A DNA stretch of 58,025 nt from Nitrospiraceae bacterium (lineage in GTDB: Bacteria; Nitrospirota; Nitrospiria; Nitrospirales; Nitrospiraceae). This document shows positions 15,846 through 25,337 of the stretch, one piece after another (the stretch's first letter is position 1; each line of letters starts with the position of its first letter). The notes under the pieces were generated by a model that was not told the DNA's origin, did not search any database, and saw only the letters and a program-made list of their open reading frames with translations. Position numbers and translations under genes: made by a program. The stretch lies in contig CAKKRK010000084.1 of the NCBI GenBank assembly GCA_919902665.1, forward strand, positions 1-58,025. Direction: 5' to 3'.

Positions 15846-18341
15846 ATGGCCATCAAGAAATCCGACCTCTATTCTTCCCTTTGGGCTTCCTGCGATGAAC
15901 TGCGTGGCGGCATGGATGCCAGCCAGTACAAGGACTACGTCCTGTTCATGCTGTTCATCAAATATGTTTCCGACAAATACGGCAACTCCGACGACTTTGC
16001 CCCGCCCGTCGTCATTCCGAAGGGGGCTAGCTTTAAGGACATGGTCGCCCTCAAGGGCAACAGCGACATCGGCAACCTGATCAACACCAAGGTCATCCAG
16101 CCGCTGATCGATGCTAACCAGAGCCTTGCCCGAAGCGACTTTCCCGACTTCAACGACTCGAACAAGCTCGGCGACGGCGCGCAGAAGGTTGAAAAACTGG
16201 GTAACCTCATCGCTATCTTCGAGAACCCCGCGCTCGATTTCTCCAAGAACCGCGCCGAGAACGACGACATCCTGGGCGACGCCTACGAATATCTCATGCG
16301 GCACTTCGCCACCGAGAGTGGCAAGAGCAAGGGCCAGTTCTACACTCCGTCCGAGGTCAGCCGCGTCATAGCCAAGGCCATCGGCATCTCGCCGGCCAAT
16401 TCCAAAGCCGCCACCACCGCCTATGACCCCACCTGCGGCTCCGGTTCGCTGCTGCTGAAGGTCGCAGCCGAGGCGGGCAAACACATTACTCTTGAAGGGC
16501 AGGAGAAGGACGTGACCACCGCCGGTCTCGCCCGAATGAACATGATCCTGCACGACTTCCCGACGGCCAATGTGCTCTCGGGCAACACGCTGTTCGATCC
16601 CAAATTCAAGGACGGCGAGCAGCTCCGCACCTACGACTACGTCGTTGCCAATCCGCCCTTCTCGGACAAGACCTGGTCCACCGGCCTCACCTTGGGGGAG
16701 GGCGGTAGCGGGGACAAATACCAACGCTTCACTTGGGGTGTCCCTCCGAAGAAGCAGGGGGACTACGCCTACCTGCTGCACATCATCCGCTCACTGAAGA
16801 GCACCGGCAAAGGCGCGTGCATCCTCCCGCACGGGGTCCTCTTCCGGGGCAATGCCGAGGCCGTCATCCGCCAGCAGCTCGTTCGATCGGGCTACCTCAA
16901 GGCCATCATCGGCCTGCCCGCCAATCTCTTTTACGGCACCGGCATCCCGGCCTGCATCGTCGTGCTCGACAAGGAAAACGCGACCGCCCGCAAGGGCATC
17001 TTCATGATTGATGCCTCCAAGGGCTTCAAGAAGGACGGCCCGAAGAACCGCCTCCGCGAGCAGGACCTCCACAAGATCGTGGACACCTTCACCCGGCAGG
17101 ATGAAAGCGACCCGCGCTACGCCCGCATGGTGCCCGTCGCCGAAATCGCCGACCCGAAGAACGACTACAACCTCAACCTCCCGCGCTACATCGACAGCAC
17201 CGAGCCGGAGGATTTGCAAGACATTGACGGCCACCTGCGCGGCGGCATCCCCGAGCGCGACCTCGATGCCCTCGGCGCTTATTGGGAAATCATGCCCGGC
17301 CTGCGCGCCGCCTTGTTCGAGAAGTTCAACCGCCCCGGCTACTCCGCCCTCAAGCTCCTCATCGCCCAAGTGAAGCCCGCGATCTTCAGCCACCCCGAGT
17401 TCACCGCCTTCACCACCAAGGCCAGGAAGCTGTTCACGAAATGGCAGACGGCCTCCGTCCCGAGGCTCAAGGGCTTAGCCAAGGACGGCCATCCTAAGCC
17501 GCTCATCGAAACCATCGCCGAAGACCTACTCGCCACCTTCAAGACCGCGCCGCTGCTTGATGCCTACGATGTCTATCAGCACCTCATGGACTACTGGGCT
17601 GAAGTCATGCAGGACGATTGCTACCTCATCGCCGATGCCGGGTGGAAGGCCGGCGCGTTGCCCCGCGAAATCCGGCAGGTCAAAAACAAGGAAGGCAAAC
17701 TCGTCTGGCCCGAGAAGGAAGACTTCAAGAAGGGCAAGCGCCGCTTCAAGTCCGACCTCGTCCCCGCCGCCCTGCTCATTGCCCGCTATTTCTCCGCTGA
17801 GCGGGATGCCATCGCCGCCCTCGAAGCTGAACTCGCCGGCATCGAGCAGCAGCTCGACGACAGGCGCGAGGAACAAAGCGGCGAGGAAGGGCTGCTCGCG
17901 GAGGTCATCGAAGGCGAGGGCGAGAAGCAGAAGATCACCGCCAAGGCCGTGAAGGCCCGCCTCAAGGAAATCGGTCACGACCCGGACTACGCCGAGGAAC
18001 GCCAGGCCCTCGAAGACTACGCCGCCCTGCTCGACCAGCAGGCCTACGCCAAGGCCCGGCTCAAGACAACGCAGGACGAACTCGAAGCCAAGCTCAACGC
18101 CAAATATCCGAAACTTAACGAAGACGAGATCAAGACACTGGTAGTGGACGACAAATGGCTGGCCACCCTCGCCGCCGCCGTGCAGGGCGAGCTGGACCGC
18201 GTCTCGCAAACCCTCACCGGCCGCATCCGCCAACTCGCCGAACGCTACGCCACCCCGCTGCCGCAGCTCACCGACGAAGTCGCGACGCTCGCCACCCGCG
18301 TGGATGGACACCTCAAAAAGATGGGGGCTGCGTGGAAGTGA
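15846..18341 (+). CDS. hsdM: Type I restriction-modification methyltransferase subunit
   Basis: HsdM transfers a methyl group from S-adenosylmethionine to adenine N6 at the site chosen by HsdS. The HsdM_N helical domain occupies about residues 5-130. AdoMet motif I is DPTCGSGSLLL (from residue 194) and the catalytic motif IV is NPPF (269-272). It has 831 residues, against roughly 500 for classical HsdM. The extra C-terminal 330 residues include a charged coiled coil (about 660-760, rich in EEL, KAR and ALE blocks) and probably contact HsdS or HsdR. The ATG at 15846 has no strong ribosome site. It is the first gene of the operon hsdM-hsdS-DUF262-hsdR-ygjP-like; its stop overlaps the hsdS start by 4 bp. 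Confidence 0.95.
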   Translation: MAIKKSDLYSSLWASCDELRGGMDASQYKDYVLFMLFIKYVSDKYGNSDDFAPPVVIPKGASFKDMVALKGNSDIGNLINTKVIQPLIDANQSLARSDFPDFNDSNKLGDGAQKVEKLGNLIAIFENPALDFSKNRAENDDILGDAYEYLMRHFATESGKSKGQFYTPSEVSRVIAKAIGISPANSKAATTAYDPTCGSGSLLLKVAAEAGKHITLEGQEKDVTTAGLARMNMILHDFPTANVLSGNTLFDPKFKDGEQLRTYDYVVANPPFSDKTWSTGLTLGEGGSGDKYQRFTWGVPPKKQGDYAYLLHIIRSLKSTGKGACILPHGVLFRGNAEAVIRQQLVRSGYLKAIIGLPANLFYGTGIPACIVVLDKENATARKGIFMIDASKGFKKDGPKNRLREQDLHKIVDTFTRQDESDPRYARMVPVAEIADPKNDYNLNLPRYIDSTEPEDLQDIDGHLRGGIPERDLDALGAYWEIMPGLRAALFEKFNRPGYSALKLLIAQVKPAIFSHPEFTAFTTKARKLFTKWQTASVPRLKGLAKDGHPKPLIETIAEDLLATFKTAPLLDAYDVYQHLMDYWAEVMQDDCYLIADAGWKAGALPREIRQVKNKEGKLVWPEKEDFKKGKRRFKSDLVPAALLIARYFSAERDAIAALEAELAGIEQQLDDRREEQSGEEGLLAEVIEGEGEKQKITAKAVKARLKEIGHDPDYAEERQALEDYAALLDQQAYAKARLKTTQDELEAKLNAKYPKLNEDEIKTLVVDDKWLATLAAAVQGELDRVSQTLTGRIRQLAERYATPLPQLTDEVATLATRVDGHLKKMGAAWK

Positions 18342-19591
18342 AAACCGGCTACAAACAGACCGAGGTCGGCGTCATCCCGGAGGAGTGGGAAGTCACTCCG
18401 TTCGTCTCACTTGGGAGCGTTATTGACGGCGATAGAGGAACGAACTATCCGGCCAGTAAAGACTTTAGCATCGACGGTCACTGTCTTTTCTTAGACGCGG
18501 GCAACGTAACGAAAGCTGGATTTAGATTCGGCGACTGCGCGTTTATCAGCCGTGAAAAGGATGAGCGACTTAGCAAGGGAAAGCTTAAACGGGATGACAT
18601 CGTTCTCACCACGCGAGGCACTGTTGGCAACTTCGCCCATTTCGACTCCACAGTCTCGTTTGAGCATATCCGCATCAACTCCGGCATGGTGATTCTACGG
18701 AACGAGTCTGCCGTTCTCGATACTGCGTTCTTGTATGCCTTGCTTCAGTCGAATTTTGTGGAGAAGCAAATCGAGCGACTTACCTTCGGGAGCGCTCAAC
18801 CGCAGTTGACGGTTAAAGGCATCAATGAATTTTGGATTGTTGCGCCACCCCTCCCCGAACAACGCGCCATCGCGACGGCGTTGAGCGATGTGGATGGACT
18901 GCTGGGCGGGCTGGACCGGCTAATCGCCAAGAAGCGCGACCTCAAACAGGCCGCCATGCAGCAACTCCTCACCGGCCAAACCCGCCTCCCCGGCTTCCAC
19001 GGCGTGTGGGAGGTGAAGCGGTTGGGGGATGTCGCCACTTTCTACAAAGGCAAAGGGCTACCCAAAAGTGCGCTCAGCGAATCAGGGGCAGAGCCATGCA
19101 TTCACTACGGCGAGCTGTTCACCCGCTACCCAGAAACCATCGGGGAAATTTTCAGCCTCACTGATGATTCATCAGGCGTGTTTCGTTCGATCGCAAACGA
19201 CGTGCTGATGCCCACGTCTGACGTAACACCCAGAGGGCTAGCCAAAGCGAGTTGCGTCAGGGTCGATGGTGTAATCCTCGGCGGAGACATTCTCGTAATC
19301 CGGTCAGACACGAGTCTAATCCACGGCTCTTTCTTGAGTTTCCTCATTCGCTATGAGGAAACACAGGTCCTTCAACTCGTGACAGGCAGCACCGTCTACC
19401 ACCTCTACGGGAGTGACATGAAAAATTTCACCTTCTCCATGCCGTCCCTCCCCGAACAAACCGCCATCGCCGAGGTGCTGACGGAGATGGACGCGGAGCT
19501 GGCGGTGTTGGAGCATCGGCGGGAGAAGACCCGCGCCCTCAAGCAGGCCATGATGCAGGAACTCCTCACCGGAAGGACCAGGCTCGTATGA
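18338..19591 (+). CDS. hsdS: Type I restriction-modification specificity subunit
   Basis: HsdS recognises the bipartite DNA target for methylation and cleavage. The start is the GTG at 18338 (KTGYKQTEVGVIPEEWEV), whose GTGA overlaps the hsdM stop; this opening is typical of HsdS. The 417 residues have two target-recognition domains (about 5-150 and 215-350). Each is followed by a conserved helical spacer: PPLPEQRAIATALSDVDGLL and, in repeat form, PSLPEQTAIAEVLTEMDAEL. Each spacer then gives a QAAMQQLLTGQTRLP/QAMMQELLTGRTRLV element. The two different recognition domains mean an asymmetric target. It overlaps the following DUF262 gene by 4 bp. Confidence 0.95.
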   Translation: MKTGYKQTEVGVIPEEWEVTPFVSLGSVIDGDRGTNYPASKDFSIDGHCLFLDAGNVTKAGFRFGDCAFISREKDERLSKGKLKRDDIVLTTRGTVGNFAHFDSTVSFEHIRINSGMVILRNESAVLDTAFLYALLQSNFVEKQIERLTFGSAQPQLTVKGINEFWIVAPPLPEQRAIATALSDVDGLLGGLDRLIAKKRDLKQAAMQQLLTGQTRLPGFHGVWEVKRLGDVATFYKGKGLPKSALSESGAEPCIHYGELFTRYPETIGEIFSLTDDSSGVFRSIANDVLMPTSDVTPRGLAKASCVRVDGVILGGDILVIRSDTSLIHGSFLSFLIRYEETQVLQLVTGSTVYHLYGSDMKNFTFSMPSLPEQTAIAEVLTEMDAELAVLEHRREKTRALKQAMMQELLTGRTRLV

Positions 19592-21459
19592 GCACAATTA
19601 CCCCTCACTACCGCAGCGTGCAGCAACTACTGCAAACCCAATCCTTCTCGATTGACGAATACCAGCGCGAGTACAAATGGGAGAAAGAGCACATCGACGA
19701 GCTGCTCTCGGATTTGCAGGGCAAATTCTTAAGTTGCTACAAGGTCGGCGACGATACCAAGAAGGTGAGTGGCTACGAGGAATATTTTCTTGGCTCGATC
19801 ATCGTCAGCAAGCGGAACGGCAAGAGCTACTTGATCGACGGGCAGCAGCGTGTCACGTCGCTGACCCTGTTGCTGATCTGCCTCTACCGGGCAGCAAAGG
19901 CGAAAAACTTGCAGGTCATCCAAACCCTCGCGCCGCTCATCTTCAGTGACAATCTCGGCGAACCACGATTTAACCTCGATATCCCGGAGCGGTTGCCGGT
20001 GATCGAGGCACTGTTCAAGGGTGAGCCTTTTAGTCCCGACGGCAAAGATGAGTCCATCCAAACGATGTTTGCCCGCTATGGTGACATTGAGCAGAACGAC
20101 CTCGTGGTGGACTTGGGTGATGCCCTGCCGCATTTCGCCTATTGGCTGCTGACAAAAGTCGGCTTGATCGAGATTGCGACGGACAACGACAACTACGCTT
20201 ACGCGATTTTCGAGACAATGAATGACCGCGGTAAGCCGCTCAGTCCGGTGGACATGCTCAAAGCCTATCTGCTGGCACCGATTGAAGACGCTGAGAAGCG
20301 ACGCAGTGCCAACCAAGAGTGGAAGAAAGAGGTGTTGGACCTCATTTCGTGGGGAGGAACGCACGAACCGGAGCGCGATGCCAATTGCATCAAGGCGTGG
20401 CTTCGAGCCCAGTTCGCCGAAACCATCCGTGACCGAAAAGCCGGCGCTACGGACAAGGACTGGGAGATCATTGGCACCGTGTTCCATCGTTGGGTCAGAG
20501 ATAACAGCGTCCGGCTCAAGCTGGGTGCAGAGGCCGAAAACCTCGCGATGATCACGGTCAGTTTTCCGTTTTTCGCGAAGGCATATCGAAGGATTCAGGA
20601 GGCAAGCCGAACCTATACCAAAGGACTTCAGGCGGTCTTTTACAACGCTCACAACGACTTTACCTGGCAGAATACCGTGTTGCTGGCCCCGCTCGTGGTG
20701 TCCGACGATGACGAGACGGTGCGCCGCAAGATCGCGGTGACAGCCACCTACCTGGACATCTGGCTCATGCGTCGTGTGGTTAACTACATCCGTGTCGGTT
20801 ATTCGAGCACTTCGTATGCAATGTGGCTGCTGTGCCGGGACATTCGACGCAAACCGCTTGCCGAATTAGTGGATGTGCTGAGCAGAAAGCTGGCAGAGGA
20901 CGATGTGACCTTCAAAGGCAGTCCATCTAAAGGTCGGAGTGGAGTGGGAGAGCTCGGGTTGAATCAGTTTAGCCGTCGATATGTTTTCCATCTGCTCGCC
21001 CGACTGACGGCGTTCACGGAGGCCGGATCGGGCCGCGCGGACTCCTTTGACAAGTATGTAGATCGCACGGCGCAGAATCCCTTCGATATCGAACACATCT
21101 GGGCAAACGATTATGCGAGCCACCGAAGTTTGTTTACCTCAGAACAAGAGTTCCAAGACTGGCGCAACCATGTCGCCTCGCTCCTGCTTCTTCCGGCTGA
21201 TGTGAACCGCAGCCTGCAAGACAAGAATTACCTTGATAAGGCCCCGCACTACGCCAAGCAGAACTTCTACGCGGCAAGCCTGGTCGCCAGCGTGTACCAG
21301 CATCAACCGCAATTCGAGCAATTCAGGACTGCCAGAAACCTGCCCTTTCAATCGTTTGCCAGTTTTGGAAAACCAGAGCAGCTGAAGCGACGGAATTTGG
21401 TAGCAGCGCTTGTGGATGTCGTTTGGTCGGCGGATCGGCTCAAGGAGGTGGCGCAATGA
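19588..21459 (+). CDS. DUF262/DUF1524 protein (GmrSD-like) inside the hsd operon
   Basis: The 623-residue protein begins with a DUF262 (ParB-like) domain holding the invariant DGQQR motif at residues 84-88, preceded by SFSIDEYQREYKW and followed by VTSLTLLLI. Its C-terminal part carries a DUF1524 HNH-like nuclease motif, DIEHIWANDY, with His near residue 503. In Type IV enzymes such as GmrSD and BrxU this pair couples NTP-dependent recognition of modified DNA to cleavage. Here the ATG overlaps the hsdS stop codon by 4 bp and hsdR follows 42 bp later, so it is an integral part of the Type I operon. Whether it acts as an independent restriction enzyme, an accessory subunit or a guard of the R-M system is not known. 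Confidence 0.85.
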   Translation: MSTITPHYRSVQQLLQTQSFSIDEYQREYKWEKEHIDELLSDLQGKFLSCYKVGDDTKKVSGYEEYFLGSIIVSKRNGKSYLIDGQQRVTSLTLLLICLYRAAKAKNLQVIQTLAPLIFSDNLGEPRFNLDIPERLPVIEALFKGEPFSPDGKDESIQTMFARYGDIEQNDLVVDLGDALPHFAYWLLTKVGLIEIATDNDNYAYAIFETMNDRGKPLSPVDMLKAYLLAPIEDAEKRRSANQEWKKEVLDLISWGGTHEPERDANCIKAWLRAQFAETIRDRKAGATDKDWEIIGTVFHRWVRDNSVRLKLGAEAENLAMITVSFPFFAKAYRRIQEASRTYTKGLQAVFYNAHNDFTWQNTVLLAPLVVSDDDETVRRKIAVTATYLDIWLMRRVVNYIRVGYSSTSYAMWLLCRDIRRKPLAELVDVLSRKLAEDDVTFKGSPSKGRSGVGELGLNQFSRRYVFHLLARLTAFTEAGSGRADSFDKYVDRTAQNPFDIEHIWANDYASHRSLFTSEQEFQDWRNHVASLLLLPADVNRSLQDKNYLDKAPHYAKQNFYAASLVASVYQHQPQFEQFRTARNLPFQSFASFGKPEQLKRRNLVAALVDVVWSADRLKEVAQ

Positions 21460-21501: not shown

Positions 21502-24500
21502 ATGCTTGAGCAACCCCGCTCTGAACGCAAGACGCAGAACCGCGTCATCGCCCTGTTCACGGACCCAGCCAGGCCCGATTGCCTCGGCTACGACTACCTT
21601 GGCGAGTGGACTAAGCGGGAGAACAACCGTTGCATCGAGGCGGACCTGCTCCGCGCCAACCTGAAGGCACGCGGTTATTCGGAAGCACACATTTCCGCCG
21701 CCCTGCAGAAGCTGATGGCTGCCGCGGACGCCACCGGCATCACCCTCTATCAGGCCAACCTGCGCACTTACCAACTGCTGCGCTACGGCGTGTCGGTGCA
21801 GATCGCCGCCGGACGGCCGCACGACACAGTGCATCTGGTGGATTGGGAGCACCCGGAGCAGAACGATTTCGCCCTCGCCGAGGAAGTGACCTTGCGCGGG
21901 GGGTACGAGCGTCGCCCCGACCTCGTGCTTTACCTGAACGGCATCGCCGTCGCTGTGATCGAGCTGAAGCGGAGTTCGGTCGAGATCGCGGATGGCGTGC
22001 GCCAGCTCAGAACCAACCAGGAAGAAATCTTCAACAAGGGCTTCTTCCCAACGGTGCAACTGCTGTTCGCGGGGAACGATTCGCAGGGGCTGCGCTATGG
22101 CACGGTGACTACACGGGAGGAGTTCTTCGTCGAATGGAAATCGGCGAGTCCCGTCTCGCTGATACCGGGCACTCTACTGGACCGGCCACTGGCCGAAATG
22201 TGTGAAAAGTCCCGCCTGCTCGACTTAATCCGCAACTTCATCATCTTCGATGGGGGCATCAAGAAAGTGCCGCGCCCGCATCAGTTCGCGGGCGTGAAGG
22301 CGGCACAGGAACGCATCCGCACACGCGAGGGCGGCGTCATCTGGCACACGCAGGGGAGCGGCAAAAGCATCCTCATGGTGCTGCTGGCCAAGTGGCTGCT
22401 AGAGCACGATCCCGAAGCCCGCATCCTCATCGTCACCGACCGCGACGAACTGGACAAACAGATCGAGGGCGTGATGAAGAACGCCGGGGTCATCGGCGAA
22501 GACTCGCCATCGCCCCGCATCCTGAACCGGGCTGAGTTCGTGGCCAAGCTGGGCGCCCCCTCGCCCCGGCTGCTGTGCGCACTGATCCACAAGTTCGATC
22601 CCGCCGACCTCGAAGGCCCGCCGCCACACGTTCATGGCCGGTTCTACGTCTTCGTGGATGAATGCCACCGCACCCAGGGCGGCGACATGAACCGCCAGAT
22701 GAAACGTTGGCTGGAGCATGCCATCTTTATCGGTTTCACCGGCACGCCGCTGCTGAAAAAGGATGCCGATAAGCTGAGAACCCGCGACATCTTCGGCACC
22801 TACATCCATACCTACAAGTTTCACGAAGGTGTGGCGGATGGGGTCATCCTCGATTTGAAATACGAGGCCCGCGATGTGCCGCAACGCATCACCTCGCCCA
22901 AGGCCATCGAGGCGTATTTCGCGCAAAAGACGAAGACGCTGAACAATTTTCAGAAGGCCATTATCCGCAAGCGATGGGCGACGATGGAGGAGCTGATGAG
23001 CGCCGAGGAGCGCAAGGCCCGCATCGCCGCCAGCATCATCCACGATTTCGACACCAAGCCGCGCCTGAACAACGACCGAGGCACGGCCATTCTCGTGGCC
23101 GCGAGCATCTATGACGCCTGCCACTACTACCGCATCTTCCAAAGCAAGCCGTTCGGCCAATACTGCGGCATTATCACGTCCTTCGAGCCGACCGCGACGG
23201 CGATTTCGAAGGAGCCTGCGAACAGCGACGAACGCTACAAGTTCGACACCTATACGAAGCACGTCCTCAAGAGCGGGCAGACGACGAAAGCCTACGAGGA
23301 CGAAGCCAAGCGCCGCTTCATCAAAGAGCCTGCAAACATGAAGCTACTGATTGTTGTGAGCAAACTCCTGACCGGTTTCGACGCACCGAGTTGCACCTAT
23401 ATCTACCTCGATAACGAACTGCACGACCACAATCTCTTCCAGGCCATCTGCCGCACCAATCGCCTGGACGGTGATGACAAGGACTACGGTTATATCGTGG
23501 ACTTCAAGGAGCTGTTGGAAGATGTGGAGGAGGCCATCGCGGTCTATAGCTCCGATGAGCTGGACATTGATCAGGGCAACGGCGGCACCAACAACGTCGA
23601 GCTGAAGGACTGGCTCAAAGAAGGAAAGAAGCAGCTTGATGCCGCCCGCGAGGCGCTTCGCTACCTCTGCGAGCCGGTACCGCTCCCGCGTGAAGTGGAG
23701 CAGTTCCTCCGTTACTTTTGCGGTGACGCGGCCAACCCTCAAGCATTGGCGGACACGGAGCCGCTGCGCATTGCCTTCTACAAATCCGTCGCCACGTTCG
23801 TGCGCGCCTACGCCGACATCGCGCAAGACCTCACCGAGGCCGGTTACTCGGATACCGAGGCCGGAGCGTTACAGAAGGAAGTCGAGTTCTACGGCGACAC
23901 CCGCAGCGCCATCAAAAAGCACTCAGGCGAGGAGTTGGACATCAAGCCCTACGAGGCAGACATGCGGAACCTGCTCAATACCTACGTCCAAGCCGACCCG
24001 GCGGCAAATATGGGCAACCTCAATTCGCTGTCGCTCACGGAGCTGATCGTCGAGACCGGCATCCACGACGCCATTGCCCGCAAGCTGAACGAGAAGGGCA
24101 AGCTCTCGAATAATGCCATCGCCGAGGGCATCATCAACAACGTTCGCAAGACCATCATCCGTGACCAGCTCACCGACCCGAGGTTTTACGCCGAAATGTC
24201 GAAGCTCCTGGGTGATCTGATCAAGCAGAGTCGTGCAGATGCGGCAGCTTACGAGGAGTTCCTTCGGAAAGCGGAAGCACTGGCCAAGCGGCTGGTGGCG
24301 AAGCAACCGGAGGAGGACGTTCCTGCGATGCTTCACGGCAACCGGGAGGCTATCGTCATCTTTCGCAACCTTCCTCAGATCCTCGCGGGTGGCCACGGCG
24401 CTGCCGATGTCGCCGCTGAATCTCAAGCCGAATACGGGAGCAAGCTGGCAAGGCTGGCGCTGGAGATTGATCGTGTCATCCGGGAGCAGGCGCCAGCGGG

Positions 24501-24624
24501 GTGGAAGGGCGACCATGCACGTGAGGCGCAGGTGCTCAATGCGCTGTTCCCGTTACTCGACCGCAATCGTGAGGCAACGAGGGCTCTCTTTGAACTGGTC
24601 AAGAACCAACCGGGGTACGGATGA
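21502..24624 (+). CDS. hsdR: Type I restriction endonuclease subunit
   Basis: HsdR gives ATP-dependent DNA translocation and cleavage. The 1040 residues show an N-terminal PD-(D/E)xK nuclease (D140, E154, K156 in [10 protein letters not shown]...VIELKRS). The SF2 motor follows, with Walker A GSGKS (285-289), motif II DECH (387-390) and motif III TGTP (413-416); further motor motifs include [16 protein letters not shown]. The C-terminal 250 residues are a helical region for assembly with HsdM. The ATG at 21502 is used; the 42-bp gap from the DUF262 gene lacks an obvious ribosome site. It overlaps the YgjP-like gene by 4 bp. Confidence 0.95.
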
Positions 24625-25337
24625 GCGAGACCCTGCAACTTGGCGACCTTTCCGTTGAGCTGACTCGCAAGGCGGTCAAGCATGTGCATTTGTCTGTGCA
24701 TCCTCCAGAAGGCCGCGTGAGCCTGGTTGCCCCCACCGGAACCAGGATGGAAGTTGCGCGTGCCTATGCCATCTCGAAGCTAGTGTGGATTCGGACACAG
24801 CGGGCAAAATTTGCTGAACAAGCTCGGGAGAGCCCCCGCCGGTTCATCACACGAGAGACTCACTACCTATGGGGACGGCGCTATCTGTTATCGGTGGAGC
24901 ACCAAGATGCGAAGCCCAGCGTCAGGCTAGGTCATCGACGGATCACCCTCGTTGTGCGACCCGGCAGCACAAAGGCGGTCCGCGCAAGGGTCATGCACGA
25001 GTGGCATAAGTCCCTGCTTCATCGGACAGTGCCTCCGCTAATCCGGAAGTGGGAGAGGAAACTGAGGGTGGAGGTCGCTGGATATTTCCTCCAGCGTATG
25101 AAGACGAAGTGGGGGGGCTGCAACCACAGGGCACGTCACATCCGGCTGAACACGGAACTCGTGAAAAAGCCGAAGGACCTGCTTGAATATGTGATCGTTC
25201 ACGAGATGATTCATCTGATCGAACCTAGACACAGCGAACGTTTCATGTCGCTACTGGCTACGCACTATCCAACTTGGCGCGAAGCGCGGGCGGAGCTGAA
25301 TGAACTGCCACTCGGAGCGTGGGGAAATAGACGGTGA
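24621..25337 (+). CDS. YgjP-like (DUF45) metal-dependent hydrolase
   Basis: The 238-residue protein is a DUF45/YgjP-like zinc protein with the metallopeptidase signature HEMIH at 194-198 and a third metal ligand at H204 (EPRHSERF). It also has the family motif [20 protein letters not shown] (162-181). The ATG overlaps the hsdR stop codon (ATGA), so translation is coupled. DUF45 genes are known to sit behind hsdR in many Type I loci. A protease or nucleotide-hydrolase activity has been proposed for the family; the substrate here is unknown. Confidence 0.88.

Follow-up and report, generated by a model that had tools for sequence, protein, structure and literature searches.

A GmrSD-family protein gene as apparently exchangeable cargo between hsdS and hsdR in a Nitrospiraceae Type I restriction-modification operon

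Type I restriction-modification genes are the commonest neighbors of GmrSD genes (PMC4619093). RloF of Campylobacter jejuni (Miller 2005) is, according to the accounts of it given in PMC4619093 and PMC11411939, a DUF262 protein encoded between hsdS and hsdR, and the Campylobacter rlo genes are an older example of guests at this site. TgvAB, from the VPI-2 island of V. cholerae, is also embedded in a Type I locus and gives strong protection against T-even phages when HsdR carries the K172A mutation; its authors proposed that TgvAB and the Type I enzyme complement each other with respect to modified and unmodified DNA (PMC11411939). Relatives occur in other defense systems as well: BrxU complements BREX (PMC8565348), and HEC-06, which is also GmrSD-like, is found within Hma systems (PMC11411939). 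SspE and DndI treat DNA marks of the host as "self" (PMC11662687). The hsdS-hsdR site was proposed in 2025 to be a recombination hotspot, based on the E. coli RptR-RMS-DarTG2-M48 (RRDM) island, which has an M48 peptidase gene downstream (PMC12255303). Both the arrangement and the idea of complementarity are already known (RloF, Machnicka 2015, TgvAB), and the gene described here is an ordinary but tidy example of the published arrangement.

The window, by which we mean the whole analyzed stretch of 58,025 nucleotides (contig 84, CAKKRK010000084.1), belongs to a 3.56-Mb Nitrospiraceae genome that is 99.86% complete, contains one DUF262 gene in total, and has a Nitrospira MAG as its nearest named relative. 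Five genes lie on the plus strand in the order hsdM-hsdS-gmrSD-hsdR-YgjP (Table 1). The start of hsdS is likely to be either GTG 18338, which forms a GTGA overlap with the hsdM stop, or GTG 18332, within a long ORF running from 18155. The gmrSD start codon at 19588 sits inside the hsdS stop (end 19591) as a 4-bp ATGA overlap, and 42 bp separate the gmrSD end at 21459 from the hsdR start at 21502; the position between hsdS and hsdR claimed from the sequence alone (the sequence-only reading) was therefore borne out. The same reading proposed coupled translation with hsdS, and the ATGA overlap makes co-translation of the two genes probable. GC3 is 0.68–0.69 in hsdS and gmrSD, below hsdM (0.84) and hsdR (0.79), and gmrSD of the Nitrospira locus L022 is likewise below the hsdM and hsdR genes beside it. 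A YgjP-like gene also followed hsdR in almost every related operon seen (tblastn of relatives), a position comparable to that of the M48 gene in the RRDM island (PMC12255303).

Table 1. Features of the Type I operon, the GmrSD-like protein and a tmRNA gene in the window
Feature	Position	Strand	Basis or remark
hsdM, Type I adenine-N6 DNA methyltransferase subunit, 831 aa	15846..18341	+	PF02384 E 3.5e-94; PF12161 E 1.1e-13; PADLOC MTase_I E 0
hsdS, specificity subunit	18338..19591	+	PF01420, two stretches, E 1.6e-26
gmrSD-like gene, DUF262 + DUF1524, 623 aa, ATG start	19588..21459	+	ORF call, Pfam, motifs, fold
QR motif Q26-R27, DUF262 domain	19663..19668	+	Invariant in alignment
DGQQR, residues 84–88, putative NTP pocket	19837..19851	+	Invariant; function by analogy with PMC4619093, PMC8565348, PMC11411939
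FxxxN, F208-N212	20209..20223	+	Invariant in alignment
E502-H503, predicted His-Me finger nuclease	21091..21096	+	Alignment, model; family motif in PMC4619093
S531, at position of LGNL asparagine (GmrD N169)	21178..21180	+	Just before predicted strand 532–536
N540, helix asparagine of E-H-N-N motif	21205..21207	+	Invariant; alignment, model, PMC4619093
hsdR, Type I restriction/translocase subunit, 1040 aa	21502..24624	+	PF04313 E 1.4e-35; PF18766 E 4e-63; TIGR00348 E 2.2e-142
YgjP-like (SprT-like) metallopeptidase	24621..25337	+	PF01863 E 8.4e-54; 4-bp overlap with hsdR
tmRNA gene, tag ANQELALAA	31334..31681	-	

Both family domains were recognized in a single chain, GmrSD_N (PF03235) at residues 12–229 (E 4e-34, 118.9 bits) and GmrSD_C (PF07510) at residues 488–566 (E 4e-9, 36.9 bits), each above its curated Pfam cut-off (33.2 and 23 bits, respectively). 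The QR, DGQQR, FxxxN, E502-H503 and N540 positions were invariant in an alignment of 10 homologues of 39–83% identity. The AlphaFold2 model (pLDDT 81, pTM 0.65) has a ParB-like domain at the N-terminus, joined by a helical linker to a His-Me finger domain at the C-terminus, with N540 placed in a helix. Strong fold matches in the PDB were limited to GmrSD-type proteins, namely DndI (9jfl, Z 21.9), SspE (Z 17–19) and BrxU (Z 12), followed by ParB domains (Z ~4, residues 5–216) and HNH domains (Z ~3.8, residues 460–604); TM-scores over the whole chain against known structures were only ~0.3–0.4, indicating a different or flexible domain arrangement. Pfam, motifs and fold thus agree that the gene encodes a GmrSD-family (DUF262 + DUF1524) protein, as had been read from its DGQQR (residues 84–88) and DIEHIW (residues 500–505) motifs. 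The best PADLOC models were HEC-06 (E 1.3e-35) and Orf5 (E 8e-32), with split and partial matches; naming the protein after either was dropped because the matches were too partial.

The nuclease motif departs from the family pattern. When checked against the E/D-H-N-N motif, E502, H503 and N540 are present with the family spacing, and the middle asparagine is replaced by S531, which lies nine residues from N540, the same spacing as GmrD N169–N178 (PMC4619093). H503 ends a predicted beta strand (499–503) and is followed by I-W-A, where I-x-P is usual in the family. These replacements are not peculiar to the window protein: the LGNL asparagine is Ser, Gly or Asp in all aligned members of the subfamily, with an invariant N527 four residues upstream of S531; IEHIWAN takes the place of (I/L/V)(E/D)H(I/L/V)xPQ throughout, so that the EHxxP proline is absent; and most members have Asp in place of the proline two positions before YQR. 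As read from the alignment, the replaced LGNL, EHxxP and pre-YQR positions are a small new detail. Because the LGNL asparagine and the EHxxP proline are missing, catalysis by this subfamily should not be assumed, and the replacements might mean that DUF1524 cleavage has been lost and the protein retained only as a sensor or binder. We regard such a loss as highly improbable, since E502, H503, N527 and N540 are invariant, the replaced asparagine position is described as structural and not metal-binding (PMC4619093), and purifying selection on the gene is strong (pN 0.11 compared with pS 0.83, against the Nitrospira homologue).

A protein 58–83% identical to that of the window was found between hsdS and hsdR, on the same strand in the manner of RloF and TgvAB, in Nitrospira (L022), Chlorobiaceae (L023), Sphingorhabdus (L024), Pelovirga (L027) and a Deinococcus plasmid (L085). 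The gene order is therefore not unique to the window genome, which had been named as a point that would count against the sequence-only reading, and its recurrence with the same protein in five other genomes or plasmids argues that the arrangement is not due to chance. The ATGA overlap with hsdS is exact in four of these five loci (five of six including the window), and Pelovirga has a gap of ~60 bp. The same protein also occurs apart from Type I genes. A Rahnella copy (~75% identity) has an integrase gene on one side and an HATPase + Type IIG-like gene on the other, with no hsd genes; a near-identical Yersinia copy likewise has no hsd homologue; and a copy on an Aeromonas plasmid (~75% identity), also with no hsd genes, adjoins genes for an SNF2 helicase and a Type III-like methyltransferase. 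At the Aeromonas locus (L084:9001-19860), gmrSD stands directly before SNF2-like, DUF4391, UvrD-like, Type III-like methyltransferase and AAA ATPase genes; together these may form a multi-gene defense system not described before. A methyltransferase gene, belonging to one of three different restriction-modification (RM) types, was present near all loci of at least 58% identity whose neighbors were read. More distant relatives, with 38% identity in Pantoea and 31% on an E. coli plasmid, stand by themselves. A pattern scan of IMG/VR viral contigs, which reaches close relatives only, found no relative.

Related Type I operons were sought through hsdR in 395 Nitrospirota genomes, and the hsdS-hsdR interval was fully readable in 16. 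A GmrSD/DUF262 gene was present in three of these intervals, no guest gene in two and other genes in the remaining 11. The three comprise L058, which has the same protein as the window; L057, which has an unrelated one; and L072, in which an AAA_13 RloC-like gene stands beside the DUF262 gene. The two slots lacking a guest are L068 (hsdR 77%, no N and ~17 bp between genes) and L074 (268 bp). Elsewhere the guests were Schlafen/AlbA and HATPase proteins preceded by a 23S-IVP-type four-helix protein (L070, L071 and L073), DUF4062 and HATPase (L079), AbiEii (L075), Fic (L077 and L081), IVP with a zinc ribbon (L080 and L083), a transposase-like gene (L076) and unknowns (L078). In L057, the nearest of the Type I relatives whose slot could be read (hsdR 94%, hsdM 89%), the guest is a GmrSD protein only 17–23% identical to that of the window. 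Among 28 other GmrSD-like loci examined in Nitrospirota, five lie in a Type I slot (L057, L058, L062, L063 and L123) and the majority lie outside it; four of the five slot proteins are distinct both from the window protein and among themselves (17–27% identity). The slot is therefore common to many guests, and gmrSD behaves, as judged from these gene neighborhoods, as exchangeable cargo and not as a fixed part of the Type I enzyme.

Several details of these loci are recorded here for completeness. The L057 guest (L057:8073-9998, G006, same genus) is a 641-amino-acid GmrSD-like protein with canonical EHVLPQ and LGNL motifs, and it matches the PADLOC HEC-06/Orf5 models far better than the window protein does (E 3e-63). 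At L072:5491-10772, the AAA_13 gene lies side by side with a DUF262-only protein that has no GmrSD_C match. L065 (hsdR 94%) was set aside as a perfect empty site because of 13 N at the junction, and L068 was taken instead; L066 was not counted among the slots, as the Type I genes intact there are those of a different system. The hsdR gene is split or broken by frameshifts or stops at L068:11203-14315 (G222) and L066:10053-13091 (G123), so that these two relatives may have lost restriction or may switch it by phase variation. The window hsdS is 32–61% identical to those of relatives whose hsdM is 75–91% identical, as expected under specificity switching.

The gene trees are consistent with exchange. 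The window grouped with L057, L023 and L085 in the hsdR tree (100/100), in agreement with the hsdM tree (92/99), and grouping of the window with L023 and L085 was rejected by the gmrSD data (p-AU 0.016). Conversely, the gmrSD-like grouping with L022 and L024 was rejected by hsdR (p-AU 4e-57) and by hsdM (p-AU 0.0014). The gmrSD tree is weakly resolved, with one starred branch, and incongruence on the gmrSD side rests on one AU test; the conflict therefore serves as supporting evidence only. The high gmrSD identity to L022 (83%, compared with hsdR 51%) was considered as proof of recent transfer and set aside, because synonymous sites are saturated: pS against L022 is 0.83 for gmrSD and lower, 0.61–0.68, for hsdM and hsdR, so the protein is under stronger constraint or has a different composition. 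The conflict between trees was relied on in its place.

The sequence-only reading suggested a joint device with the Type I enzyme; in the strong form of this idea, the protein would be a physical or functional partner that needs HsdMS or HsdR. Retention of the ATGA overlap in most Type I contexts and the occupation of the same slot by several unrelated GmrSD lineages are consistent with such a partnership. We nevertheless consider it very unlikely and abandoned this part of the reading, because guests in the slot are exchangeable, non-Type I contexts house the same protein, the gmrSD and hsd trees conflict and TgvAB protects with HsdR K172A (PMC11411939). HsdS proteins of the partner Type I operons are, moreover, only 31–40% identical, which gives no sign of a conserved HsdS surface.

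The main rival to the explanation we prefer comes from the closest match in both sequence (E 4e-8) and fold (Z 21.9), DndI (9jfl, PMC11662687), which is also a single-chain DUF262 + DUF1524 protein of similar size. If the window protein worked as SspE and DndI do, the nuclease would be restrained or licensed by host N6-methyladenine from HsdMS or a neighboring methyltransferase, and would attack unmarked DNA. The methyltransferase genes near the inspected relatives of at least 58% identity, of three RM types, fit this idea, and Tyr25 falls in exact alignment with Y25, the residue with which DndI senses its mark. However, Tyr25 was discounted as evidence of phosphorothioate sensing, since DUF262 proteins generally have the YQR tyrosine, and the hydrophobic patch P-x-Y-Q of DndI (P23, Y25 and Q26) is not kept, the window protein having Asp23-x-Tyr25-Gln26. 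DndI reads phosphorothioate made by DndBCDE, whereas a search of the 99.86% complete genome for DndC (TIGR03183) gave no match, which makes phosphorothioate unlikely as the mark. A search for DUF4007 (SspB) was uninformative, as the controls were silent too. The partner RM specificities also differ, so there would be no marked site in common, and the Pantoea and E. coli plasmid relatives have no partner at all. On balance, a self-mark reader seems unlikely. More doubtful still is a specific version in which the altered-motif subfamily would read adenine methylation by the resident RM system (Type I, IIG-like or III-like) as its self mark, one methyltransferase serving both its own nuclease and the guest.

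With the domains, motifs, fold, gene context, exchangeability and purifying selection described above, the gene is probably exchangeable cargo between hsdS and hsdR whose product is a single-chain GmrSD-family nuclease that acts independently of HsdMSR against modified phage DNA. We infer the activity of the protein, its modified-base target and its translational coupling, partly by analogy. The protein would be translated together with HsdS from the Type I operon. Based on the motifs, the fold and studied relatives, the DUF262 domain would bind and hydrolyze NTP and sense an abnormal chemical state of DNA, and the DUF1524 His-Me finger domain would nick or cut the DNA so sensed, most likely with no need for HsdM, HsdS or HsdR. 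It would probably cover phages that are protected from the Type I enzyme by modified bases, with HsdMSR covering unmodified DNA, for which TgvAB and BrxU are tested precedents. Complementarity with the Type I enzyme, as the sequence-only reading had suggested, thus has a precedent that was tested in TgvAB (PMC11411939), and may extend to this locus by analogy. The accompanying claim that family members cut modified DNA does not extend to every DUF262/DUF1524 protein, SspE and DndI being exceptions (PMC11662687). Several points count against our explanation. Besides the altered nuclease motif, the weakly resolved gmrSD tree and the low whole-chain TM-scores described above, the nearest solved structure, DndI, spares marked self DNA and is not an attacker of modified DNA, and the methyltransferase beside the inspected relatives of at least 58% identity could signify dependence on a mark.

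If complementarity is true, a single operon covers both modified and unmodified phage DNA. With the locus and its relatives, the Type I operons known to have a GmrSD-type nuclease as a guest extend to Nitrospira and several further phyla, and the close relatives show the hsdS-hsdR site as an interchangeable defense slot, in which the same Type I genes have different guests and the same guest has different RM types. The changed nuclease and sensor motifs make the subfamily a useful test of GmrSD recognition.

Among the described systems, RloF and the window protein share the DUF262 domain and the hsdS-hsdR location, a likeness drawn from the published description. TgvAB resembles the window in having GmrSD-family genes between hsdS and hsdR and in its DGQQR and His-Me finger motifs, but it consists of two proteins, both needed, whereas the window has a single DUF262 + DUF1524 chain; only one ORF fits between the window hsdS and hsdR, and a second adjacent DUF262 gene is absent. 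The phage activity on record is that of TgvAB. The RRDM island is likewise a Type I operon with cargo in the hsdS-hsdR interval and a gene for a metallopeptidase further downstream, but its cargo is DarTG2, with no GmrSD protein, and it has the RptR regulator. BrxU (7p9k/7p9m) is, like the window protein, a single-chain DUF262 + DUF1524 protein of the same fold (Z 12) embedded in a defense system; it differs in its host system, which is BREX, in having DHIYP in place of EHIWA, and in sequence, with ~13–16% identity in the structural alignment.
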